Of a DNA stretch of 64,000 bases, positions 9,901-59,330 are shown in pieces; the first letter of the stretch is position 1; every line of letters begins with the position of its first letter. This stretch comes from Atriophallophorus winterbourni. Lineage: Eukaryota; Platyhelminthes; Trematoda; Plagiorchiida; Microphallidae. The stretch covers positions 1 through 64,000 of the forward strand of contig JACCGJ010001450.1 of the NCBI GenBank assembly GCA_013407085.1, written 5' to 3'. The notes under the pieces were generated by a model that saw only the letters and a list, made by a program, of their open reading frames with translations, was not told the origin of the DNA and did no database searches. Both the position numbers and the translations under genes were made by a program.

Positions 9901-12900
9901 CTGGAGTTGGAGTTAGGGGATTGGAAAAACGATCGATAGTAAGTTTATCTCATTATCTTTTCCACTGTACGTTTTCAACTATCTGGGCTTGATATCGGTA
10001 TTGTGCTCACGAACGTCCCATCCCATTTTACTCGAAGTATCGTTACTTTATTAACGTTTCAAGTATTACACCATCTACCCATGTATTATTGCCACAACTT
10101 TTTTGCCGTAACTGACTTTCCTGGTGTGGTGTGTTCTCAAATCTCAGTCGAACAATACAGTGCATCGGGTTTGAGATCTCGATATGATATTCCTAGTTTA
10201 ATATCTGTAGGATTTTGCTCATATCGGTAATCTTCGTGTCGTCAAATTTTCAGTTTCCGCGTAGTTGCGCTGGATCATGATCTCGTCTCCTTCGTGGACG
10301 TGCAAATGCCTCGTGATAGATCTTCCGTGTGGCCCATAGTCATCGTGACCAACCCGAAACACTCCGGCTACCTTCTCCCACACAAAGAACCCTTTTCTCG
10401 AATCCTACAATCGAAGTTTATACGGTTTGTCTCACGTTGTTTTCTATCTTCGCAGACTTTGCTATAATCCTCTTCGTATCGTTTTGTTGGTTTTCTCTCG
10501 AGCTCCACTATGAATCCGTACACTTGTATGTCCATAATTGTTTTGACTTTGATCCTGTAGCAATCTTTCCAAATATCACTTGGTCTATTAATGATTACAC
10601 ACCGTTTGTTCATTATGACCGCCACCTTTCACTAATATTTTTGCGCATGCGTGAAAATTAAAATAAGCAAAAATACTTTCGAAATCCACTTTGCAATCAC
10701 TTCTCTCTTTGTTAACAGCATTCTCGCTTGGTCAGCGTCACCAATCACACAAGTGGCCGTTTTCATTGACGATTGGTTTCAGGGCAACGCCTCCATGGCT
10801 ACCCCAGCGACTGGGTCCGTTGGAGCCAGCCCCTTGTTCGTTTTACCATGGGACGCCTCCCACTGGGATGATCGGAAGGTTCATAATATCCGAGTCCAAG
10901 TGGCCGTATGTGTTTTCGTTCTTGTTAAACCCTTAACGTTTCATCACCCATGGGTTTCTCAACGTAGCCATGCGACAAGTTGGTTCCTTTTTCATATTAT
11001 AAAATATAGAATACCACACTGCCTCTCTTTTCTTGGTACCGTAGCTGAAGTTCAACGGTAACTGCTCGTATCCTATTGGTACAATTCTAGGACAAATAAA
11101 ACCAGTTGTCAGATCATTTGCCTTTATTGATGCACTTTGTTGCACCGAGCCCTCAAGTGCTGATCAATAAATGCAATGCAAGTACTGGCTGTCCCAGATT
11201 TTTACATTACATTGTCCACTGAATAGGACGGGTGGATGACGGTCCGTGACGGACAGGAAGCATTTAAATCAGCACGTCTTGTTGTGGTGGTGCTTTGAAC
11301 CGAGGCTCGAAGCACCGGGGAGCATAGCGTTTGTTGTACTCTATTGTTATTTCTCAGTACTGTTGCTTGCTTAACATCCCAGTTTCGCTTGTGTTTACGC
11401 GTAACAACCTTGTCGTTCACAATAAGTATAATTGTTCTTAAATGCTACCGATAAGATCGGTCATTTGAAGGTCGATGTACAACGTGAGGCTTAAGCCGTA
11501 CTCTGTTCTGATTCACAAGAAAGAGTTCTGCTCCGTTAAATCCACACACACATACACCACTCGTCTATACATTGATGAGTGTAACATTGTCAACTCAAGC
11601 CGCACGTTTGGTCTGTGATTTTCGCTTGTTCTGTCATCACTATTGTTAGACGCGGGAGTTTTAACCGTATTTTGACCTAACCTGAATACCTGAACTCACA
11701 TGAATTCCTGTTCAACTTGTTCTTAGGATGCCAAAGGCAATCGCCGCGACGTTAGTCAACCGTTCATCGTCACCGGGGATCCGACTTGGAAGTTTGACAA
11801 ATTTTCCTCATTCGTATTACAAACTGATCACACTTTCAACGTGAGTCTCTTTTACGATGTACACTAACTTTCCACCCCCATTCCTGCTCCAAATTGACTC
11901 GAATTCAACATCGGCATGCAAGCATAACTTTTTTAGCGCTTTACCATCGTTTTAAGACTCACTGTCTCCGTCTGATGAAGGCAAACAGTCCGAAACCTGT
12001 TGTGGTGTGTAATTTCTATTTCCATTTTCCCCCTCATATCTGTCTAGGCCTGGGCAACCTGACGGTATCTTAGCCCACGTGCAGCCTCTGTCTGTGCGGC
12101 ACTTTGCCTGGATCAGGCTTGTGCTTTCATACCATACCATACCATGTGGTGTGTAAGTGAAGGGGATGTGAGCACCACACGATATTTCTCTTCTCACACG
12201 AAAGGTAAACCAAATGCACGCCTGTCTGTCTCTCTATATTGTTTCGCAGCGAAATGTCTCTTTTGCGCAGACTGCGTTCATAGCGACACTCCGTCTTCAC
12301 TGGTTGCCAAATCGAGAGCATCATATGCTTTGCTTTTGCATTCATCTTTTTCTGGCTAACGTGGTTTTATTTATCACGAAATTTATACTGATTTGTTGTT
12401 GTTGTTGGCCTCTTTCGGTCGATGTCGACCATGGATGTACATCAAAGTCGCATGAATTTTCATGTTCTACACCTTTTTGAATGACTAATCAGTCCGATTC
12501 GGGAGGAACAATCTCACCCGCAGCGCTTGCAACGATGGTCAGAACTCGGTTGTTGGGCGTCAGTTGCACGCCGGCGGCGTAATCTTCGTTCAGCAGCAAA
12601 GAGCTGTATCTGCTCCTCCCCAGCTTGCAGACGACGCTTTACACAATGCCTCCAATGTGAGCGGTCAAGAGCAAGTTCTTCCCAACTCGCCGGGTCAATG
12701 CAAAGAGCTTTCATATCTCTTTTACAAACGTCTTTGTACCGCAAGTGCGGTCTGCCCAATGGTCGACTTCCTAATTGCAACTCATCATAGAGTAGATCTT
12801 TCGGAATACGACCATTTTCAGTTCTGTAGACCTGACCAAGCCACCGCAGGCGGCGCTGTCGTAATAGGGTGAACATGCTCTGTAGACCAGCTTTTGAAAG

Positions 12901-19539: not shown

Positions 19540-19913
19540 ACGCCTCTATACGAATGTTTGATTAAAAAATTTGCCGAACTCGTCGCTAGGTGCGAGAAAA
19601 CGACCTCTGTTAATTGTTATTACCGAAACTTGGCTTAACCCGGAAATGCACGATTGTGAGTTAGAGATTGCTGGCATGTCAATGCGCTACCGAGGCCGTG
19701 CATCACATAGAGGTGTTGCACTCTATTATCAGAGACTCAATTGCAGAGAACTCACGGATTCTGGCTTGGTGCTTCAGGATTCGCTATGGTATCTGTTGAC
19801 AACGCTACATGCGAAGATTGCATAATCTGTGTAATTTATATAGATAACAGTTGGCATACAAGTATAATCTTGTTTACCTTTAATCCACTGTTTCAAGGCT
19901 CACTGAACCTGAT

Positions 19914-19969
19914 CTTACTGTCCCCACCTGACGACGGCAAACAGCCAGAAACCGGTAGTGGTGTGTAAG
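19914..19969 (+). ncRNA. hammerhead ribozyme, family A, unit 1
   Basis: Type I hammerhead. Stem I has outer pairs CTTAC/GTAAG and inner CCAC/GTGG with an internal loop between. The core is CTGACGA. Stem II is GGC/GCC with a C-A mismatch at the core end and loop AAACA. GAAA follows, then stem III ACC/GGT without a loop, and the predicted cleavage site after GGTA. All core positions fit CUGANGA...GAAA...UH. As a monomer stem III cannot close, so dimer activity is likely. Confidence 0.8.
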
Positions 19970-20154
19970 GGATGGGGATGTGAGCAACACATTACTTTGG
20001 TCATCCACAAGCGCCTTGAGTGCTTTGACCAAGAATCACTTTGTGATTCTGTGTCTGAACATCGTGGTTCGTTGTACGAACCCTATATAACAGTTGGCTA
20101 CAAGTATAATCTTGTTTACCTTTATCCACTGTTTCAAGGCTCACTGAACCTGAT

Positions 20155-20210
20155 CTTACTGTCTCCACCTGACGACGGCAAACAGCCAGAAACCGGTAGT
20201 GGTGTGTAAG
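20155..20210 (+). ncRNA. hammerhead ribozyme, family A, unit 2
   Basis: Same fold as unit 1, differing at one base in the stem I internal loop (TGTCT versus TGTCC). Stem I, stem II, core and the palindromic ACCGGT are unchanged. Confidence 0.8.
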
Positions 20211-21520
20211 GGATGGGGATGTGAGCAACACATTACTTGGTCATCCACAAGCGCTTGAGTGCTTTGACCAAGGAATCACTTTGTGATTCTGTGTCTGACC
20301 ATCGTGGTCTGTTGTACGCACCCTATTAACAGTGGCATTACAAGTATCATCTTGTGTAATTTATCTTCGATCAGCATCCTCAGAAGTATATAATACGACT
20401 ACTCGACAAGCTACGCTTGATTGCCCAGAATTTTTTGGGGATTTTAATCTGTCTAACATACTGAATATTCACAACATTTATCACACCTCCACTGCTGTCA
20501 TCTTCCAGCAGCTCTATAAAGACATTCCCTTTTGTAATCACGGAAATCAATACAAGATACAGAGGGAGAGATATGCCTTCAATGCTCGATATGCTCTTGA
20601 CAAATTAAGAAGACTCCGTCGAAAACATTACATTCGATTGCCCACTAGGTTCCAGCGACCATTTGGTCTTGAATTTCGTTATTCAAATATATTCAAGCAT
20701 TGTGTACAATTTCTATGCGGACCTGTGACTCAGTTATTCTGCGAGTCCCAAAGTGTTATACCGACGGACTGGAAATCCGGCATAATTTTCCCGATTTTCA
20801 AAGTCGGGTTCAGAGCCCGCAAATTACAGGCCCGTTACACTGTTGTCCGCCGTTTGCAATGTGCTCGTAACGATCGTGGCGAGCAAACTGAGTGAATCCC
20901 TTGAATAAAATAAGCTATTTTCGGGAGCGCAACATGGTTTTAGGAAGGGATACACCTGCTTTACAAACCTTCTTACCCTTGACGATTGTACTCGAGCAGT
21001 AGATGTTGGGATACCATCCATGTATGTTACCTCGATATGTCGAAATCGTTCAACCGCGTAAACCACAGTATTCTCTTGCAGACTATTAGGCTGGTTAGAA
21101 TATTATCTGACTGATCGGCTTGTTCAAATCTCTATAGTCGGTGCTTTGTCGAAATCGGTAGTCTTGACAAGTGGAGTGCGTCAGGGATCCGTCCTCGGAC
21201 CAATCCTCTTCGCACTTTATGCCAATGACATACCGACTCTCATCAACTGTTCCCAGACAATTTAAAAGTGTGGCCGCGGATAAATAAGCCGGAAGACTGC
21301 GAACTGCTCCAGGATTATGAAGATGAAGAAAAATGGCATTATTCGAGTACACGGATTTTCAGCGATACTATTAATTCGACCACACAAAATAAAATGTACA
21401 TTTTTTGCGGAAATTGAAGAACGTGAAGATCGAAGAGGACGAACTAATGGTTTCTTTCGACGTAACGGCACTATGTAATCTTTACTCAAGGAAAAAGGAA
21501 CGGAACATAATGGAAATCAA

Positions 21521-22632
21521 TTGACACACGAAAGTCTAATGGAACTGATCGAGCTGTGTCTTCAAACGCACTTCAAGTTCAATGGAAAGATATATGAACA
21601 AATCCGAGGAACGCCAATGGGATCACCGATTTCCAGCTTAGTTGCTGAGGCAGTTATGCAACGTTTGGAACGAATTACCCTGCCAATAATCCGACCAAAA
21701 TTATGGATCCGCTACGTGGACGACACCTTCGTGATTGTGAAAAGAACAGAACTGGATGAATCACATCGACTGCTCAGTTGTTTATTTACTGGAATCCAAT
21801 TTACAAAGGAAACTGAAGTTGACGGCTGTTTACCATTTATGGATGTTCAAGTGAAGAGGACAAGCGATGGAACGTCAGAGACCTGCGTCTACCGGAAAAC
21901 CACACATGGATCAAATACTGAACTTTCACAGCAAGCACCCAAACACTCGCAAACGCAGTTGCGTCAGAACCCTATTCAAAAGAGCGGCAACCCACTGCAG
22001 TACAGATGAACTGAGAAGAAAAGTAGAAGAATACCTGTTCAATGTGTTCCAGAAAAGTGGATATCCAAAAAGCTTCATACTACGCAACAGGTTCAACCGC
22101 CCACAACAAAGAACCCCAGAAGAAAACAGAAGCAGACGCACTCTGCCCTATATCCAACATATCTCCGAAATCGCAGCTCGGGTACTTCGGCCACTTGGAA
22201 TCGACATCGCGCATAAACCAGTATCAACACTTCGCAACCACTTCAACAACACGAAAGATAGTGGCAAAAGAAGAAGAGTCGAATATCGTCTACAAGATTT
22301 CATGCAGAGACAGCGAAAAGAACTACGTCGGACAAACGGGTAGCAAACTCAGCACAAGACTACATGAACACCAGTTTACCGTACGCAGACATGACCGGAA
22401 TTCACTGATTTCAATACATGTTGATCAATTTGGGCATCAGTTCGACTGGGACCGCACAAGAATATTAGCCAGAGGAAACGACCGACGGGCGCAAGAATTC
22501 CTGGAAGCGTGGCACTCAACAACAAATTCGATTAACCAGCATCTCCATCTGGCTGCAACATATGGACCAATGAGAAACCGCTCACGGAGAAGGCATAACA
22601 TGAGCTCGACCAATCCGCGGGAGTTACCGTGA
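21521..22632 (+). pseudogene. Penelope RT and GIY-YIG reading frames
   Basis: Three overlapping plus frames: 21521-22009 (RT palm with YVDDTF at about residue 68), 21867-22343 (connector) and 22042-22632 (GIY-YIG, with VYKISC and YVGQTG about 15 residues apart). The endonuclease Arg and Glu region follows. Two frameshifts separate the frames. Confidence 0.85.
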
Positions 22633-22687: not shown

Positions 22688-22721
22688 CTGATGATGTCAT
22701 CTAGCCTGATGACGAAACGCC
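22688..22721 (+). ncRNA. Penelope-type minimal hammerhead motif
   Basis: CTGATGA, one extra T, then a perfect 6-bp stem II (GTCATC / GATGAC, loop TAGCCT), GAAA and CGCC. It lies about 55 bp after the GIY-YIG stop, where hammerheads occur in other Penelope-like elements. Stem III and stem I are not obvious, as reported for the minimal dimer-type motifs of animal Penelope elements. Cleavage in this copy is uncertain. Confidence 0.6.
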
Positions 22722-30905: not shown

Positions 30906-31985
30906 TCAAATTTGATCGATCACAGCGACGTCTTTGCTCAGTGTTGCCCGGCTGGTCATAGAAGGACTCGCTAGTGTTAAAAGGTTCACCGCTTCGGCTG
31001 CGAGACCAAGACATCGCCAACGTTGCCGAGCCAAGGTGTCACGCATGCTGGATTCAATCATCGGATATATATCCATCGTGGAACTTGTCTCCAATCGTAT
31101 CCAGGGGTGCTCAAGTGACTGCTCCAACGTAGCTCTTTCCTCAGGGTCGGTTTTCAGCAATGAGGAGATAAAGTTCTTGGCAGATTTGGATATGTGATCC
31201 CAATGCGGGTGATGAAAGTGATATGTACCCGACATTATTTGCTTCTTGATTTCATTATCATCTTGATTGACAGAATAGAACGGGGGATAACCACAAAGGA
31301 GTATGTAAGACACAACACCAATGCTCCAATTATCAACTTCTGGCCCGTAACCTGATTTCGTTAATTTACTCTTTAACAATTCCGGTGCCGAGTAGTCAAC
31401 TGTCCCGCAGTTAGTCATCATTTTCGGTTGGATTTCTCGAGATAATCCAAAATCAGTGATCAGTAATTTAGAATCCTCGGCTTGATGTTCGAACAATATA
31501 TTTTCCGGCTTGATATCGCGATGCACATATCCAGCTGAGTGCATGTAGCGCACTCCCGCGAGCATTTGAGCTATTATGATTGCCGCATCCCGTTCACTGA
31601 ATTTGCCACGTTTTATTATCCTGTCAAATAGTTCACCTCCCTCCGCTAGTTCCATCACCAGATATATCTGATCAGGTTCATCCACCAAGTCATATAATTT
31701 AACCAAATTAGGGTGATCTAGCGCTCGCATAATGGATGCTTCGCGATACATAAGTTTTTTAATCTTCTTCTCCACTTCTTTTGGGGAGTATTTCTGGTAC
31801 GTTGGTTTACTTCTGTCAACTCTTTTAATCGCCACGAATTTACCCGTCTGTAAGTCTTTGGCTTTGAATACTTCACAAAATCCACCATCGCCGAGTCTAT
31901 TGATGATTTTGTATCGATCGCTTTTCAGCGGGTCTATCTTGGCCTTTTTTGACAATTCCCGCTGTTGCGCAGTTTTTCGACTCAT
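30906..31985 (-). CDS. CaMKI-like serine/threonine protein kinase, intronless
   Basis: Single open frame of 359 aa. It phosphorylates Ser/Thr residues, by family a cytosolic or nuclear calcium/calmodulin-linked kinase. Domains: glycine loop GDGGFCEVF (32-40), VAIK with Lys54, alpha-C Glu82, HRDIKPEN (155-162), DFG (178-180), activation loop with a TNCGT segment around Thr191, SAPE (199-202). All catalytic residues are present. The C-terminus (about 305-335) carries [16 protein letters not shown], which resembles the autoinhibitory/calmodulin-binding helix of CaMKI around its conserved Trp, but is diverged. There is no intron, unlike usual CaMKI genes, so a retrogene origin is likely. ATG at 31985 gives a short 24-residue lead before the domain. 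Other CAMK-group kinases are the alternative. Confidence 0.88.
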
Positions 31986-33700: not shown

Positions 33701-34138
33701 CTCTACTCGTTATGTACAATTATTTTTAATAATTTCTTTCAGACTATAATCCTGTGGTGTTGTAAGGTGTTCGCTTTTTAACCATAAATACTTTGCAAGA
33801 ACGAGTTATTATCGATCGCTAAAAATAAACGAACCGCGTTTAACAGAAAGCTACATCGGATAGTTGAAACAAACATTAGGGTTTCGGTCGCATTGAAATC
33901 GAAATGCAAGCTGTGTTTAACCATCGCGTAAAATCGGAACAATTTCACTGGTGGAAATATTATTGGTCCACTCCAAAAAGAACTTTTAGGTGAGCTGAAA
34001 ATTGTAGAAAAAATCACATGATTTAGAGCAAACTATGCCGGTCAATAATCCGAGATGGTTTATTTGTAATGCGGATGGACTGATCACGGAAGCGTAAATT
34101 GAGTACATTTGGCTTCAGGTAACCGAAACGAGAGAAAC

Positions 34139-35164
34139 ATGTCGCTCTCTGGAATGCCATTTTCGTTGATGGACAATTTAGACAATCAAAATGATTGCGA
34201 TCACCTGAGTTTGTTCAATCGTCGTCAGATTCATTACACTGGATTCGGTGCAGTCATCAATGCTTTTGATCGAATCCATGGGATGGACGTTGTGGTGAAG
34301 CGAATAGAGCATGCGCTATGGCCTCGTTCATCGAGAATGAAGCAAAAACTACTTCAGCCAATCCGTACCATTTTGCACGAAAGAGCAAATAAACTGAATG
34401 GCATACATCATCCAAATCTTGTGCCTTACCTTGGAGTTAATGAAATTCCAGGTGAACTTCGAATCATTACGCAGAAATGTCAAGGCGGAAATATGTTCAA
34501 CTGGGTTTTCTACAAAAACGTCCTCACATTGAACGAAGCCTACTGTGTGATTCGAAACTTGACTGAAGGGATACTGTATTTACAATCCAAAAATTTATCA
34601 ATCGGGCATTTGTCCCCAGTTCATGTTTTGTTTAAGAACAAAAGCGCAGATTCCGTAAAACTATTACCGGACTGGAGCGTGCAAAATTTCACTCTTGGAC
34701 TGACGAAAAACATATTCCCCGTACAAGATTGTGAATCACCCGAATTCTTAGAAGGATTGATTGAACATCTACGAATGCAACCTGGTGAAATGTACCTATT
34801 CCCGTCAACATCATCTTCCATGCTATGGAACTTTGGTTGTGTTGTCCATACACTCTTGGTCGGTAAACCTCCATACATCGCAGATTCTCCGTATGATTTA
34901 TTGGAACAGATTGCGCAAAAATCCGATAAATTGGAGCACCCGTTTTTCCGACGTACTGATCAAAATATCGTCATCTTCTTGCTAAACTTATTGACTCGTG
35001 AACCGTCCAAACGCAGCCTGGCGAGCGATTTGATCCAGAGTGCAGACACCTACGTAGGTGACATAAATTTGAAGGCCCTGTTTGAATATGACATGTTAAG
35101 TACTTGGATGCGCTATAAAAACAGAGGATGCCAACTTTTTGAATCTATTTTTGGGGACGAATGA
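34139..35164 (+). CDS. pseudokinase 1, intronless, paralogue of 37694-38779
   Basis: Open frame of 341 aa from the first ATG (the frame stays open 30 bases upstream without an ATG). Protein-kinase fold, probably catalytically dead. The glycine loop is degenerate (YTGFGAVINAF), VVVK keeps the beta-3 Lys (Lys54), HRD is replaced by IGH, the catalytic loop reads LSPVHVLF, DFG is replaced by DWS, and APE by SPE. The F-helix region (MLWNFGCVVHTLLVGKPPY) and the C-lobe are well kept. The C-terminus EYDMLSTWMRYKNRGCQLFE (plus SIF) matches the paralogue. With no stops or frameshifts it looks maintained, perhaps as a scaffold or allosteric partner; function unknown. Confidence 0.85.
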   Translation: MSLSGMPFSLMDNLDNQNDCDHLSLFNRRQIHYTGFGAVINAFDRIHGMDVVVKRIEHALWPRSSRMKQKLLQPIRTILHERANKLNGIHHPNLVPYLGVNEIPGELRIITQKCQGGNMFNWVFYKNVLTLNEAYCVIRNLTEGILYLQSKNLSIGHLSPVHVLFKNKSADSVKLLPDWSVQNFTLGLTKNIFPVQDCESPEFLEGLIEHLRMQPGEMYLFPSTSSSMLWNFGCVVHTLLVGKPPYIADSPYDLLEQIAQKSDKLEHPFFRRTDQNIVIFLLNLLTREPSKRSLASDLIQSADTYVGDINLKALFEYDMLSTWMRYKNRGCQLFESIFGDE

Positions 35165-37693: not shown

Positions 37694-38779
37694 TTAAACG
37701 ACTGAATTGCAAGCAAAAATACTTTCAAACATTTGACGCCCTCTGGACCGATAGCGCTTGCATGTACGCAATAAATCATATTCGATAATAGAAAGCAAAT
37801 TTCGACGATCTGTCCGGACCTGTTCATCGTCGAACCAGTGACCTTCGAAACTTTGTCCAGCGGAAGGCCTGGCTTCGGGATTCAACTCCATCCAACGACA
37901 AAGCTGATTGCACAGATTAAGGCTGAGCGTTTTAAACATTGGATGGCGAAGTTGACCGGCATTCTGGTCCAGCATATTTATCATTTCCTCGAGAGAATCT
38001 GAAGAGAATGGTGGTAGTCCAGTCAGGGCTATATGCATTATACAAGCCACGCTCCACATATCCATCGGCTTGGACAATTCAATTTGACTGGTCTCCTCAA
38101 TACCATCTGCCACTGAGTGTTCGGTGTTTTTAACAGTGAACTGCAACCCTTTGATTTGCTTCAAACACTCTGGAGCCCAGCAATCAACGACCGGTAATGC
38201 CAAGCAAGTGAGATGCAAAAGCTCATTGCGAACGCTCAAATCCGGCATAATTGAGACCGACTGAGGGGACATGGAATGGAACAGGATGTGAGTTGGAGAA
38301 AGAAATCCATGAATGAAATTCTCTGAGTGCAAGTAACGAATCGCCTCCAATAGGTACTGAAATACCAACGATATATCCCGCACACGAAGTTGTGATTGTT
38401 GTAGCATCCAATTGAATAAATCTCCGAACATGCACATCTCTGTTACAATGGTCACTTTGGTCGGTTCCACAACAAAATCGATCAACTTTAGCACGGAAAT
38501 ATGAGACAAGGCACGAATTTTCGCAGATTGAGCACGGAGCTTCCGGTTGAATCTTCTTTGTAATCGGATAATAGGGAAAGGTGAGTTGCGAAAATACTTA
38601 TAATCAATCTTTTTTAACGCTACCGCAGTCCCCGTTGTTAAATCTCGCGCTGCTGTCACGGAACTAAATCCATTGTAGTACAATTCGCGGTAGATCAATA
38701 ACTTATTTTGATCGAACGTCGGAGCGGTTAAGACTAGTGTGGCAGGATTCTCAGCTTGTTCGGTGGTTTCCGCTAGCAT
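37694..38779 (-). CDS. pseudokinase 2, intronless, paralogue of 34139-35164
   Basis: Open frame of 361 aa from ATG at 38779. Kinase fold without key residues: loop YYNGFSSVTAA lacks the glycine pattern, VALK keeps Lys56, the alpha-C Glu appears to be Gln, HRD is HGF (157-159), the catalytic loop is LSPTHILF (160-167), DFG is DLS (180-182), while WAPE (201-204) is kept. C-lobe helices MDMWSVACIMHIALTGLPPF are normal. C-terminus EYDLLRTCKRYRSRGRQMFE (plus SIF) matches pseudokinase 1. The long segment between the Lys and helix C resembles that of the active kinase at 30906-31985, suggesting common ancestry. Function unknown. Confidence 0.85.
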   Translation of the reverse strand: MLAETTEQAENPATLVLTAPTFDQNKLLIYRELYYNGFSSVTAARDLTTGTAVALKKIDYKYFRNSPFPIIRLQRRFNRKLRAQSAKIRALSHISVLKLIDFVVEPTKVTIVTEMCMFGDLFNWMLQQSQLRVRDISLVFQYLLEAIRYLHSENFIHGFLSPTHILFHSMSPQSVSIMPDLSVRNELLHLTCLALPVVDCWAPECLKQIKGLQFTVKNTEHSVADGIEETSQIELSKPMDMWSVACIMHIALTGLPPFSSDSLEEMINMLDQNAGQLRHPMFKTLSLNLCNQLCRWMELNPEARPSAGQSFEGHWFDDEQVRTDRRNLLSIIEYDLLRTCKRYRSRGRQMFESIFACNSVV

Positions 38780-43300: not shown

Positions 43301-46300
43301 GATAATAAAGATAATTCAGTGAAAATCAACCGAGTGTATATGAGAAAATTTGTGTAATGAAAATTGCCAAGGTCCGGATCACTCTTATCATAACTTTTTT
43401 ACTGTTGTTCAGAAGAAAAATAGAGCGATTGAAAGAAGTGCGAATAGCAATGGCGAGGAATTCAGACGTGAAAATGTTTAGTTGTATAATCAGTTACATG
43501 CCCAAGCGGAAACCACGCTACAACCGTGAGGTGGAATCCCATCTGCGGTTAGAGAATAAAAATGGTAAGAAAAGCTCACAATTGTTAACACTAGCAGACA
43601 GGCCTTAGCAGCACTGAGATTTTTAACCAGGCATGGCGTGGCAAATGAATGTTAGAAACTGCCAACACACGATTACCACAATTGGCTTTTAAAACAATTG
43701 GAATACATTAACTAGTTTCATTACCAGGCAGTTGGTATGGTATGGTATGAAAGCACAAGCCTGATCCAGGCAAAGTGCCGCACAATCAGAGACTGCACGT
43801 GGGCTGAGATATTGTCAGGTTGCCCAGGCCTAGACAGACATGTCAAAAGAAATAGAAATGGAAGTGAGACTCCAGCGTGTTTCGGCATGCAGCTCATTAC
43901 CGGTTGCCAACCAATTTAGCACGATGTTAGCCGCACAGCATAGAAATACTGCACGATTGCACATCCGTGCAAAAATGGTAGTGAGAATCCAGCGTACTTT
44001 CGCATGCAGCTCACTACCAGTGGCAGTTGGACTAGTGGTTAAGTAACACAAAGGGTTCGAGGATCGCAAAGTTGAAATTTTTAATCAAAAGTCGGTGCTC
44101 ATTGTTATACCCGACTGTTGAGAAGGGCAAGGGATAAGCACTCGTTAAGACTGTATCGCGAGGCTTTGGGCCAGCGATTATCATCTCATACGCGTGTACA
44201 GTACCTACAAAACACAATGAACACAGGATCGAGGAAAAAGAGGAGACGAATTCAATTCCGCTTGATGGTCAATGTGAAAGAAACCAAGTTCCCTGCCGTT
44301 TATGCCCGTTCGACACTTTGACGGCTTCTAGACTTGTGACGTCATGCCCCTTTTACGCCTCCCTACCATCTTACTACCACTCGTGGTACATTTCGATCCG
44401 GATATTCGGAAAATATGTCTCAGCGCCGAGTAAGAAGTTGGCTGAGTTGAGCTCGCCTCGGTGGAGATGACAAAATCGATCCCTCAACGTATTAGTGACC
44501 TCGAGTAAACATGGGATTAAGAAGAGTCTTGATTATAGGCAATAATTAGCAGCAGAATAACGACACGTACAACACACTATCAGTTCAAAAATGCATCAGG
44601 TCGAACCATTTTTATGTTTCCGGAGGGTGGTCTGAACGGAAACACGCAATAATGAACACTTAATACCTGAAATGCAAGTACTTTCTTCCATTTTTAGACG
44701 GATCGCTTTCAGTTTCTACAGTCTTCTTCTGGTTATGGCGCAAAAATGAGACGATAGATAAATGTAAAAGTATATCGTGATAACAGAACTCGATTGAGCA
44801 CTCAACCTGATGTAATGAGTTTGTATAGACAGGGAAGGCAGAGAAAACGGCCCCAAACATATGTATTGTGGTGCTCACATCCCCATCCCTTACACACCAC
44901 TACCGGTTTCTGGCTGTTTGCCGTCATCAGGTGGAGACAGTAAGATCAGGTTCAGTGAGCCCAAAACCTAATCCTTTAAGTGTAAAATATTGATATTCGT
45001 GCCTTGAAAAGATTCTACACGACTTTAAATCCATAGTAAAAATGTTTCTGGTAGAAAAAGCATGAGCAAATAATAGTAAGAACCGTCATGATGCCGCATC
45101 ACAGCGGAACCATGGTTGCAAAAGCTAGGGACACAGAGCGGGATAATCGGAAAACAAACACGAACCTTTCGAGCACACAATTGTATCGCGAGCGAATCCA
45201 ACGAAGCCGGAGCGTCACCGGAGCCACCCAACTTTGCGCTGACAATATCACACAATTCAGTGCGACTATACGGACGAAAAATCAAGTGCTTCGGCTTATG
45301 TGATTTGCCAAGAAGTCGGGGAAGGAGACGTTCGGGGAGATCCAGTGCGTTGGCAATCCCGATGATGATAAGATGGCACGACAGCGTGGATGGCCAATCG
45401 AAAATCCTTAGGAAGCAAACCGCATGAATGAAAACAAAAGGATAAACAGACTAGGAAAATTAAACGCGAATAACGCAAATTAGGAATAATAAGCATCGGG
45501 AAATTATACGCGATGAATAAGAATTCGTTTTGCTTTTAGTGGCAATGTGGCTCAATCACGAACTTATTATAGATAATCAGAAAATAAGAACCAGCACCTA
45601 GCTGTCAGAGCCGAAGTCGTGTTGAAATTTGTCAGATATTTGAGGCACGTTATCGAAATCTTAGGCATATTAAACAATAGTAATAATAGTTCATGTCGAA
45701 ACGGTCATGAAATAAACAGTATAAATAAATATGGTAAGAAATGAGGAGCTGAAACCATGCATCAGAATGAAGCTCGAGTCTGGAACCACACAGTGTCGAG
45801 CAACATCAGGCATCAGTACACTTGATTTGTGTGGCTACCTTTCGGTAATTAAGTATTCCGTTTGAAAACACAGGGTGTGATGCCACGATGCCCGAGCCTA
45901 CAAACGAACCTCGAGAATTCATCAGGGAAATGATATTAGATTCTACTCTCGGTCACAGGGCATTGACGGTGGCAGTTAGTGCAGTAAAGTGTTATGAGTA
46001 TGTATGTATGAAATCACAAGTCTGATCCCGGCTAAATTCCAAAGTCAAACAGTGCACATAAGCTAAAATACTGTCAGCTTGCCTCGGCCTACACAGATAT
46101 GAAAAATGAAAATAGAAACGGCAGTGAGACTACAGCGAGTTTCAGCATGCAGCTCACTACCGGTGACAAGTCAATTTAGCATGGTGTTAGCTGCGCAATA
46201 GACAAGTGTTAAACATTCAAGTCCCGAATACTTAGCTGCCATACAACCATGACTAAATAAATCAAAAGATAGGGAAGTGTGGGGACTAAAAAGCTACAGA

Positions 46301-51111: not shown

Positions 51112-51645
51112 TTATGATTGCGTTTGGTTCAATAATTATCTCTTAATCCTATACTCTCTTTTGCAGCTATACTACTTCAATTGTGAATTGAAAAAGGTTC
51201 ATTTCCAGACAATCAGTCTCTCCTAACTCGGTGTATGCTTGATTCAAACATAACAATTTATTTAATTCACAAATTTTAAAATGGAACGATTCCTGCGCCC
51301 AGAGAAATTTTACGCGGATGCTGCCAAACGATGGAAACATTGGTTTCATACTTTTTCTTATTTTCTAAACGAATTGTGCGACATACTTTTAGACAACTTG
51401 AAAATCTTACACAATTACATTTCAGCTGATGTATACGACTTATTCTCTGCGTGTTCAACTTCTTCTGACACGATCCGTACACTCGAGGTCTTGTGTGACA
51501 AGCCGAAAAAATGAAGTTTTACACGTCATATTTTGGCAACATGTAAACGAGTGGTCAATCTCTCGACCAGTTTGTTCGTAAATTACGAGATCCCGCCAAA
51601 GATTTTAAATTATAGTCAGTTGTCATAGCCAATGTAATAAAGAAT
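51112..51645 (+). mobile_element. Gypsy-type gag fragment
   Basis: The plus frame 51281-51514 (MERFLRPEKFYADAAKRWKH, HNYISADVYDLFSACSTSSD) and, after a stop, RHILATCKRVVN then DQFVRKLRDPAKDF match the N-terminal half of a Ty3/Gypsy gag. It is inserted in the LINE-A copy. Confidence 0.7.
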
Positions 51646-52022
51646 CACCGGAGCAGTGTAGCTAGATGAAAGGTTTGAAGCACTTAGTTCTGTAATTATA
51701 GAAGGATCATATAAGCGCATTTCTGTTAAACAGCAAACATTAACAGTTATACTATCTAAGTTAAGAGCCAGGCCAATGCAGTAGGTCTCATAGTCTCGAC
51801 CAGTTTGTTCGTAAATTACGAGATCCCGCCAAAGATTTTAAATTATAGTCAGTTGTCATAGCCAATGTAATAAAGAATCACCGGAGCAGTACAAAATGTA
51901 GCTAGATGAAAGGTTTGAAGCACTTAGTTCTGTAATTATAGAAGGATCATATAAGCGCATTTCTGTTAAACAGCAAACATTAACAGTTATACTATCTAAG
52001 TTAAGAGCCAGGCCAATGCAGT
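51561..52022. repeat. tandem duplication across a gag/LINE junction
   Basis: 51561-51782 is repeated at 51794-52022. The copies are nearly identical apart from a 7-base ACAAAAT insertion in the second. Each holds about 80 bp of gag and about 140 bp of LINE-A. Confidence 0.92.
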
Positions 52023-55330: not shown

Positions 55331-56484
55331 CCATCCTAGTCGCAAGGTGCTGAAACCTTTGGAGACATGCTATATCTTTTTTCAAGTACGGTGCCCAGGA
55401 TTGAATGCAGTATTCCAAGTGAGGATATCCGAACTATTTCAAGATTACCACAAGAACTTTTATTCTATTCTCAACGGATTTGAACATGGTTATGACACGT
55501 AAATCTGCTAAAGGATATCATGCAGCATGACCTGCAAGGAAGCCTCTAGAGAATGGGTGCTCTCCTGCTCACTCTGGGGATTCTTGTCTGGTTTGTTTGA
55601 AACAGGTCGCCAATAAAGATAAAGCTGTTCAAGGTGAAATATTTCCAATGTGGATGCATATTCAACGTGGTGGAATAAAGTCGGAGATGTATCGTTGGCT
55701 TCAGAGAAATTCATGTGACATCATTCGCTTCAAGTTGGCACGGCTTTTGCTAAGACCTCTGAATGTCTTTATGGAGGGAAATAGTGTAAATAGTGGCTCA
55801 CCCTCGAAAGAGGATAGCCAACACAAATCTTGTGTACAGCAATTTTCGGAAATCTGGAGATGTACGCACTTTTGCGGAAGTTGCTGCCTTGTTTGTACTC
55901 AGTTCAAAAGATGCAGTTAGTTTTGCCGGTGCAATGAACGTTCATAAACCGAAAGAGGACCAGGAACTACCAGAGTTGGATAAAGCAATCAAGAACAAAG
56001 ACCAGAGCTTAATCACTGATTAGAGTTTCAAATCCTCCATCATCCTTCACAATGCGCCGGAGCAAACAGGTGCCTTGGCGATAGACAGGGTTAAACAATA
56101 ACGCGATTTCTTAAACTCTGCTCTTGTCCCCCTTTTCGACGAAGAGGAAATGGGTGAAACGATACTCACAGCGTTTCGTCCAGGCCGCAGGCCAGCGCCA
56201 GGTGATCGCCCAGACCATTAAACATTGTTTCGAACTAGTATTTGTGTAGACGGATGGCGCAATGTGAACTGGAGTTCTCGTCTACTCGCTACTTTATAAG
56301 TAGCTGAAGGGACTAAACTAAGCCCCAACTGATCCAACGGCGTATTGCCGCGAGGGTTATTACAACCACTGGATAGTTCAAAGTAGAATACCATTCCGAA
56401 ACGCTAAAATCTTACCGGAAGCACAGGACAGTTCACATTGCGCCATCCTCTACACAAATACTAGTTCGAAACGCGAAGAGTCAG

Positions 56485-56539
56485 CGGATACGCATAGCTG
56501 ATGAGAGGCAAAAACCTCGAAACCGGTCCTGTGCTTCCG
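56485..56539 (+). ncRNA. hammerhead ribozyme, family B, copy 1
   Basis: Type I: stem I GCATAG/CTGTGC (one G-U) with outer CGGA/TCCG, core CTGATGA, stem II GAGG/CCTC with loop CAAAAA, GAAA, stem III ACC/GGT without a loop, cleavage after GGTC (canonical GUC). All conserved core positions are present. Confidence 0.87.
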
Positions 56540-56741
56540 GTGAGATTTTAGCGTTTCGGAATGGTATTCTACTTTGAAGTATCCAGGGGTTGTAATAACC
56601 CTCGCGGCAATACGCCGTTGGATCAGTTGGGGCTTAGTTTAGTCCCTTCAGCTACTTATAAAGTAGCGAGTAGACGAGAACTCCAGTTCACATTGCGCCA
56701 TCTGTTTACACAAATACTAGTTCGAAACGCGAAGAGTCCAG

Positions 56742-56796
56742 CGGATGCGCATAGCTGATGAGAGGCAAAAACCTCGAAACCGGTCCTGTGCTTCCG
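56742..56796 (+). ncRNA. hammerhead ribozyme, family B, copy 2
   Basis: Same fold as copy 1; stem I internal loop TGC instead of TAC, core unchanged. Confidence 0.87.
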
Positions 56797-59330
56797 GTGA
56801 GATTTTAGCGTTTCGGAATGGTATTCTACATTAAACATTGTGTTAGACTCCGCTTAGCAAGATACCTTACTGCTAAAAAGGGGTTACAGGTTGAAGGCTA
56901 GTGAACTTCGACTCCTGCCTGATCTCTCTTCGGAAGATCGTGTGACAATGCGAAAAGCTACTCAGGAAATTATCGAGCTCAGAGCTGCAGGTAAAACTAA
57001 CTTACGCATTGTAGATTTTCGGGTTTTGATGATGATGCCAAAAGTTCGTTGGGAGCCTCTGACGATAGGCATTCGGAAGGATCTGGATCTTCAAAAATGA
57101 TATATTTTAATGCGAGAAGCTTGAGAAACAAACTGAATGAACTCTTTGAGCGGATTAGACAGGACCCTCCAGCGATTGTTGCGGTGACGGAAACCTGGCT
57201 CTCACCTGAACAGGATGATCCCGAGCTGGCCATACCTGGATATAGACTCTTTCGCTCAGATCGAACGGACGCTAGAATCGGTGGTGGGGTTGCTTTATAC
57301 TTCTAACAACATATTTTCGTCACAGTGTTAGCTCGTTTCCAGCAGACTGCCTGTATGGGTAATCGTTTATGGTGCCGTATAAGGACTGCAACTTCATTTG
57401 CCACGATAGGTGTCGTTTATCTTTCTTCCAATATTCAGACAGATACACTGATATCACAGATATGTCAGTATGATAGATCATCAAACTGCTTGATTATTGG
57501 CGTTTTCGATGCAAATAGTATTGACTGGACTTCGCTAGAGGAAATTTCTGGGTTATCTGAGCAGAACTTATTTGACGCTCTGGTTGATGTGTGCAGCATG
57601 TTTCTCTTCCGACCAGAGTAGGCCGAACTGGGCGTGAGTCCATTTTTGACTTGGTATTCACTCTACCGCAGTCCGATATTACTCATCTTTGGACTGAAAC
57701 TCCATTAGGATGTAGTGATCATGCCGTCTTACGTTTTATTTGGAAACCCAACACTGGCTGGGTACCAGATCCTTTTCCCAGAAGGAATTTTTGTAATACA
57801 GACGCGGGTAGGTTACGGGATGTTGCTTCATCTCTCGATTGGTCTTGTGATCAATCAGCTGATGTTGAAGATTGCCGGGTAGTGATCTGGAATAATATCT
57901 GAACAAATATTGAGGTGACTGTTCCGCTTTATACACGTCTTCGTTAGGCGAAAGGTCAAGGACAAGGAGCTCTGAAAACTCTTGCGGCAACGTCAAAAGC
58001 TCTTGTTGATATTCATAAGCCAGCAATACGCCACTGACTATGACAATTATTGGCAAGCTAAAAACCTCTGCTGGGCATTGGAACGCAGAAAACGTATGTT
58101 GTACAAGCAGCGATTGGGTGACGAGTATACTTGTGCACCAAAACGGCTATTCGCATGCATTCTTCGCCGCACTAAGGCATCGCCATATATCCCTAATTTG
58201 ATAGATACTAATGGGGTAGACATTATTGAGAATGGTTTGAAAGCTGAAGCTATGGTTAAGCAATATGACTCCGTGTACTGTCTCGAAGACAGTGATCTCC
58301 CTTCTCTCTCTAAAAACAGTGAGTTCCTGTCTGATCTCGATGTAGATGTCATTTATTCGCGGATGATATGAAACTGTGGGCCTCTGTCAGTTCCTGCGAT
58401 GGCCACAAACAATTTCAACAAGCAGTTGATGACTTAGTCAGTTGGACACATCGCTTGTCACTGCCAATCAATAAGGACAAGACAGTAGTCATGCGCATAA
58501 ACTCCGATGACACTGGTGGTGAATACTTTCTTGGAGGTAAGCATATTAGAGCGGTGACGGTCGAAAGAGTCTTAGGGATTATGGTTACTTATTCCTTAAA
58601 GTCTAAGGCTGACACATTTGTCAGAGAACAGGCAGCGCTACCAGGATGTTCTGGGCGATTCGGCATTCATTTGCGTCCATTACCTCGCAAATGTTCCAGA
58701 CACGTTTCTCTGCGTTTTTTGTCCTCTTTTGGAAGATGAGCTACCTGTTGCATTTCCTCAGTCTAAATGTGAGAGCGACTCCTTGGAGAGGGTACAAAGG
58801 AGGGGCACCAAAGTAGTTAGTAGAATGAGCCAACTCGCGTACGAGGATGATCGAATCTAATTGAAACTCTACTCCCCAGAACTTCGAAGGGAAAGATTTG
58901 ACAGACTCCTGACGAGCCGTATTCTTCTCGGTCAATATGGAGACGAGTTCCTTCAGTACTTCCATTTTCTAGGCGAGTCGGGGACTCAGGGACATGACTT
59001 TAAGTTGCAGAAGCCTAGAAGGATGAAGCTGAGAGATGCGAGCACGCTATTCACGCGGGTGGTGAACACTTGGATCTCTCTACCGAAAGAGCTCCTGTTT
59101 CTACCATCTGAACAACTATTTAAAAGCGCGTTGGATCAGCATTTGTTGAGACAGATGGACTTGATCCCCGGAATGATATAGTGGTATTCCTCTACTCTCA
59201 GGTTTTGCAGAAGTTAGCAAGTGACCAAGTCAGCATAAGTCACCCATGTCTATTACTGTGATGAAGCTTAACGGGATTTTATCCCTTCTGCTCATGATTC
59301 AAAAGAAGACGAAGACTCCTGCTGGAACAG

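Follow-up and report, generated by a model that had tools for sequence, protein, structure and literature searches.

How a short, non-coding ribozyme repeat came to lie in a genome with its 5' end flipped, and which type of enzyme could have put it there, are the questions raised by a 600-bp insert in the window (i.e. the whole stretch of 64,000 nucleotides that was analysed). The flipped end is suggestive of simultaneous copying of two DNA strands from the repeat RNA, a reading that does not identify the enzyme. The inversion is one structural record, if a useful one, and both its geometry and its surroundings were examined.

Structure of the insert and its hammerhead motifs

The repeat (family B) is enclosed by a target-site duplication (TSD) and occupies positions 56229-56828. 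Phases within its unit were counted from the ribozyme cleavage site, with phase 0 being the last base 5' of this site. The features are as follows:

56216-56228, plus strand: left copy of the TSD, CATTAAACATTGT, an exact repeat
56229-56429, minus strand: inverted arm of about 200 nt, running from phase +198 (outer end) to phase -2 (inner end)
56429-56472, plus strand: overlap stretch of 44 nt, with an inverted counterpart of 45 nt at 56227-56271
56430-56828, plus strand: direct part of about 400 nt, i.e. 1.56 units of 257 bp
56480-56551, plus strand: type I hammerhead motif 1, detected by Rfam RF02275 (HH9; 41.7 bits) and a strict descriptor
56522-56527, plus strand: ACCGGU palindrome, the loopless stem III of motif 1, directly 5' of C56528
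56737-56808, plus strand: type I hammerhead motif 2, detected by Rfam RF02275 (HH9; 39.9 bits) and a strict descriptor
56779-56784, plus strand: ACCGGU palindrome, the loopless stem III of motif 2, seen in the sequence
56829-56841, plus strand: right copy of the TSD, CATTAAACATTGT, an exact repeat

The two TSD copies were identical at all 13 of 13 positions. As a control, 20,000 random pairs of 30-nt pieces were drawn from this window and the 1,232 pairs lying <2 kb apart were skipped; a 13-mer was held in common by 2 of the other 18,768 pairs. The duplication is 13 bp long, with a lower bound of 10 bp if bases at its edges are assigned to the insert: the initial C is also compatible with the 3' end of the repeat and the terminal GT with the inverted arm. 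When the flanks were joined into an empty site, a single open frame of 57 codons spanned the junction, a length insufficient as proof. The outer end of the arm lies at phase +200 if the GT shared with the duplication (56227-56228) is counted. On this basis, 56526-56728 is the reverse complement of 56227-56429, with 198 of 203 positions being identical. The direct part starts at phase +158 or +159, since C56429 fits both arms, and ends at phase +43 two units on. In the stretch covered by both direct copies, three substitutions and two gaps were counted over 145 columns. An earlier note on this DNA had described a 600-bp insert with a 13-bp duplication, an inverted arm and about 1.6 direct units, and both the coordinates and the description held when set against the exact repeat and the alignment of the arm. 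One family B locus is present in the 64-kb window and a second was not found.

The same note had called two hammerheads with perfect cores and GUC cleavage sites, and both were confirmed. All of the positions that we take to be invariant in the hammerhead core (i.e. CUGAUGA, GAA and GUC) are present in each motif. Across the whole window, the RF02275 matches had E-values of 3.2e-7 and 1.2e-6 for motifs 1 and 2, but both scores fell short of the Rfam gathering threshold (52), so that no hammerhead was listed by a default scan of the window. The strict type I descriptor matched exactly these two motifs in 64 kb and gave no match in 20 rounds of mononucleotide shuffling, while looser core patterns produced five and seven matches in the window, both motifs included. 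The cleavage sites are 56528|56529 (GUC^C) and 56785|56786, a spacing of 257. One detail was absent from the earlier account, namely that stem III lacks a loop. A lone motif is therefore unable to close this stem, and the palindromes of two motifs are able to pair, which suggests cleavage as a dimer. Family B probably needs a dimer for cleavage, and dimer hammerheads are reported for amphibian retrozymes with a short helix III (PMC7229834). Folding of a single motif gave a free-energy minimum of -24.4 kcal/mol for a non-hammerhead structure, with the structure containing stems I and II only at -12.4 kcal/mol; a separate folding analysis likewise gave a different fold as the minimum (z -1.43). 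Judged on the sequence, hammerhead cleavage in the worm is plausible.

The family B core was also searched for in IMG/VR, GTDB and plasmid collections, all of which may omit records of the window's own genome. The exact and the degenerate core each had 0 matches in IMG/VR and none were found in the plasmid collection. Two degenerate-core matches in GTDB genome contigs (titled uncultured cyanobacterium and Elusimicrobia bacterium) were set aside by title. A bacterial promoter/terminator scan of the insert, which is ill-suited to fluke DNA, detected nothing.

Geometry of the inversion and the proposed mechanism

Both arms can be placed on a colinear template running from phase -2 to phase +557 (560 nt), on which the phases covered by the two cDNAs, inverted and direct, coincide over 43 nt; as aligned, the overlap is 45 nt in the arm and 44 nt in the direct part. 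Here, two variants set both the arm and the first direct unit apart from unit 2 (56684-56728), and one base of the arm is missing from the first direct unit. The common variants fit double copying of one RNA stretch but could equally be later C-to-T changes in unit 2. Microhomologies of 2 nt (GT), 1 nt (C) and 1 nt (C) were present at the junctions. The inner end of the arm lies 2-3 nt past the cleavage site, and a distance of 3 nt or less has a chance of 7/257 (2.7%). The 43-nt overlap is on the long side because the median overlap in L1 inversions is 12 bp, and it falls outside the range of 20 bp within which both ends lie in 132 of 287 L1 inversions; overlaps were reported for 44 of 106 L1 inversions in the germline and for 28 of 181 somatic ones (PMC12016303).

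It is likely that the insert arose by a single retrotransposition of a retrozyme-kind repeat, with two cDNAs being primed from both sides of the target. One exact duplication surrounds both arms, and this favours a single event. From the arm phases, we infer the use of one RNA and the following order of priming. A multimeric RNA with two sites still uncut, the 5' end of which was probably made by ribozyme cleavage, would be reverse transcribed at a staggered break. The bottom strand would prime at phase +43 and copy about 400 nt, while the top strand would prime internally on the same RNA at about phase +200 and copy back to approximately the cleavage site. Joining of both cDNAs would then leave an inverted 5' arm within one 13-bp duplication. 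Against this reading, only one copy is available, and a spacing of 43 nt or less is expected by chance for 34% of all pairs of ends on a 257-nt repeat. The earlier note had interpreted the inversion as twin priming and as a direct link between the ribozyme repeat and LINE retrotransposition. The arm geometry does fit two cDNAs on one RNA; the direct LINE link was unsupported, given that inverted arms are common in Penelope-like inserts and that inversion of Alu is very rare (see below).

A more specific proposal is that reverse transcription used as its template a linear multimer, self-cleaved at its 5' end and with two internal sites left uncut, and not the closed circle of the retrozyme model. 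This we consider unlikely. The argument for a linear cleaved RNA is that synthesis of the top-strand cDNA stopped at the cleavage site, provided that this nearness is real. In that case, the top-strand cDNA would have run off the 5' end of the self-cleaved RNA and two bases would have been added; otherwise, the RNA would have been uncut and the closeness to the cleavage site would be due to chance. The overshoot of 2-3 nt requires either untemplated bases or an uncut template. Also counting against the single-event reading are the lone hammerhead not being the free-energy minimum and the Rfam scores below the curated cut-off. Ribozyme mutants of the Anolis Penelope-like element PAc are reported to insert in vitro as well as the wild type, with unprocessed RNA as the dominant template and with no RNA-seq reads described as starting or ending at the cleavage site (PMC11167929); the ribozyme-mutant data therefore count against a cleaved template. 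Both the enzyme that moves animal retrozymes and the RNA form that it uses are presented as hypothesis only in PMC7229834. If the proposal were true, inverted retrozyme arms would reveal the 5' termini of the RNAs actually used as templates for reverse transcription, and the insertion would be a snapshot of a replication intermediate. Counts of such arms across the genome could discriminate Penelope-like from LINE machinery and a circle from a cleaved line.

Candidate enzymes, neighbouring elements and other origins

For a single retrotransposition event, we lean slightly towards Penelope-like over LINE machinery. It is quite possible that a GIY-YIG element cut the target and primed on both strands, a process in which inverted 5' arms are common. 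In Adineta, inverted arms of Penelope-like terminal repeats (pLTRs) lie within one TSD of 8-10 bp, also around a captured host gene (PMC3846280), and a curation guide places inverted pLTRs among the single-copy peculiarities (PMC8969392). The purified PAc protein of Anolis cuts and extends both strands in vitro (PMC11167929). Penelope-like elements co-occur with retrozymes and are called a strong candidate to mobilise them (PMC7229834), and the loopless stem III of family B resembles their minimal hammerheads, which are described as usually being without helix III (PMC7761336).

Decayed RT and GIY-YIG ORFs are also present in the window at 21.5-22.6 kb. This Penelope-like element (21521-22632) has its RT and GIY-YIG pieces in different frames, and both Pfam scores were just below their cut-offs (RT, 28.1 versus 29.6 bits; GIY-YIG, 21.5 versus 22.6). 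The RT ORF had 39 matches, including flatworm proteins and one named telomerase-like. A hammerhead-like CTGATGA...CGAAA core at 22688, 55 nt after the last Penelope-like ORF, was rejected as it had no Rfam hammerhead match.

An inverted 5' arm within one duplication, as expected of the products of Penelope-like machinery, was found. Other observations argue against this machinery. In such a product, both strands should start at the same two adjacent sites, whereas the outer ends of family B lie at phases +200 and +43. The inverted pLTRs described in PMC3846280 are head-to-head with overlapping 5' ends and often carry palindromes; the inner ends in family B are 97 nt apart in phase. In the same account, direct pLTRs alone are the rule in Adineta Pen1 copies, and a TSD is missing from some Pen2 inserts. 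No sequence common to the insert and the window's Penelope-like element was detected at the sensitivity used. The insert itself was rejected as a Penelope-like element, having no telomerase-like RT or GIY-YIG ORF and ATG ORFs of no more than 65 aa.

Mobilisation in trans by a LINE, whose endonuclease and RT would act by L1-style twin priming, is a somewhat less probable route. At 13 bp, the duplication has the median length of L1 duplications (PMC12016303), the 15-bp duplications of ribozyme repeats in Nematostella have been called LINE-like (PMC4918200), and the closeness of the end points and the microhomology are similar to those of L1 twin priming. At 66-2236, the window contains a LINE-type RT (Pfam RVT_1, 86.9 bits) together with a weaker endonuclease match (24.3 bits versus a cut-off of 27.4). 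On the other side, the last 60 nt of the insert contain neither poly(A) nor a microsatellite, i.e. no LINE-type 3' tail, and had no match elsewhere in the window better than expected by chance (best E 0.61). By comparison, same-strand copies of a SINE-like repeat in the window (D1) have clear CATA/CATAC tails in five of seven cases and short imperfect ones in the other two. The labels LINE and SINE-like are drawn from translations and repeats, with Pfam support only where given. Inversion by L1 also depends on what is moved, as 639 of 2068 L1 copies were inverted in cis but only 4 of 477 SVA and 1 of 5554 Alu copies in trans (PMC2912911); processed pseudogenes, which are moved in trans and were inverted in 3 of 23 cases, are the exception (PMC12016303).

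A second tandem repeat in the window (family A, 19828-20364) contains a 241-bp unit in 2.1 direct copies, flanked by duplications of 12 bp:

19828-19839 and 20353-20364: family A duplications, TGTGTAATTTAT

This repeat is inserted within an apparent LINE endonuclease domain, the frame of which is open across the joined flanks (...CIICVIY / LRSASS...FFGDFNLSN). Family A (19840-20352) was rejected as a hammerhead because of the absence of an Rfam match and a stem II that, by eye, closes on a C-A mismatch; on sequence, a family A ribozyme is doubtful. Another family A fragment at 11958-12179 is split by the D1 repeat, which has an 11-bp duplication (GTGGTGTGTAA) and a CATAC tail. A solo 99-nt fragment of family A at 44863-44961 (minus strand) has GCTCAC/GTGAGC near its ends and includes the hammerhead-like part. 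At 51561-52022, a near-identical tandem duplication of 240 bp has parts that are 77-81% similar to 2269-2583; this duplication was rejected as a ribozyme repeat, having no hammerhead-descriptor match and not being family A.

The remaining features of the window are kinase-like ORFs at 30906-31985 (minus strand), 34109-35164 (plus strand) and 37694-38779 (minus strand), the first two with Pfam Pkinase matches and the last two appearing by eye to be diverged relatives of each other. The protein of 30906-31985 was 91% identical to one of Calicophoron daubneyi and 85% identical to one of Heterobilharzia. From its sequence, the source organism looks like a trematode.

Two further origins were weighed against a single retrotransposition with two cDNAs. 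It is improbable that every family B copy has the inverted arm, which would make the family a fold-back element. Such an element would be compatible with a family known from a single locus in the 64-kb window, but the outer end of the arm and the 43-nt overlap look like chance breakpoints within the unit and family A, though another family, has its direct units and TSD without an arm. Head-to-head fold-backs are an artefact class in assemblies, but an assembly fold-back error, a later rearrangement or two nested insertions are highly improbable explanations, as one exact duplication encloses everything, an artefact is not expected to stop there and 5 of 203 positions are mismatched between the arm and the direct copy.

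Comparison with known systems

A single event with two cDNAs places the insert close to L1 5' inversions (PMC2912911, PMC12016303), with which it has in common an inverted 5' cDNA, a cDNA overlap, microhomology and a 13-bp duplication. The insert differs from these in deriving from a short non-coding tandem RNA, in its lack of poly(A) and in an overlap of 43 nt versus a median of 12. The pLTR arrays of Penelope-like elements in Adineta (PMC3846280) and Anolis (PMC11167929) are similar in combining an inverted 5' arm and partial tandem copies within one duplication and in having minimal hammerheads. Unlike these arrays, the insert is without RT or GIY-YIG, and neither the inner nor the outer ends of its two arms coincide in phase.

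No report of an inverted retrozyme arm was found among open full-text papers, most of which were judged by title, and 'twin priming' and 'hammerhead' occurred together in no paper found in this literature. In schistosomes, hammerhead repeats carry the name Sm-alpha; these and the schistosome W-elements are likened to family B by description. W-elements are trematode repeats with hammerheads and one has a possible duplication (PMC8490949).

The family B insert matches the description of metazoan retrozymes, i.e. non-autonomous hammerhead retroelements of a known kind, because a non-coding, strongly self-paired unit and a duplication are both parts of the published description. As in metazoan non-LTR retrozymes (PMC7229834), there is one type I hammerhead per tandem unit of 150-450 bp (motifs 257 bp apart), no coding capacity (stop-free maximum of 68 codons; longest ATG ORF of 65 aa), a GC content of <50% (0.467) and a duplication of >4 bp (13 bp, at least 10). 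Retrozyme RNAs are described as highly self-paired (PMC7229834), and the 257-nt unit folded as a circle reached -91.4 kcal/mol as compared to -64.5 ± 5.1 in 100 shuffles. Family B departs from the usual invertebrate retrozymes in its loopless stem III, which is of the dimer type as in amphibians (PMC7229834), and from described metazoan retrozymes in carrying an inverted arm at its 5' end.
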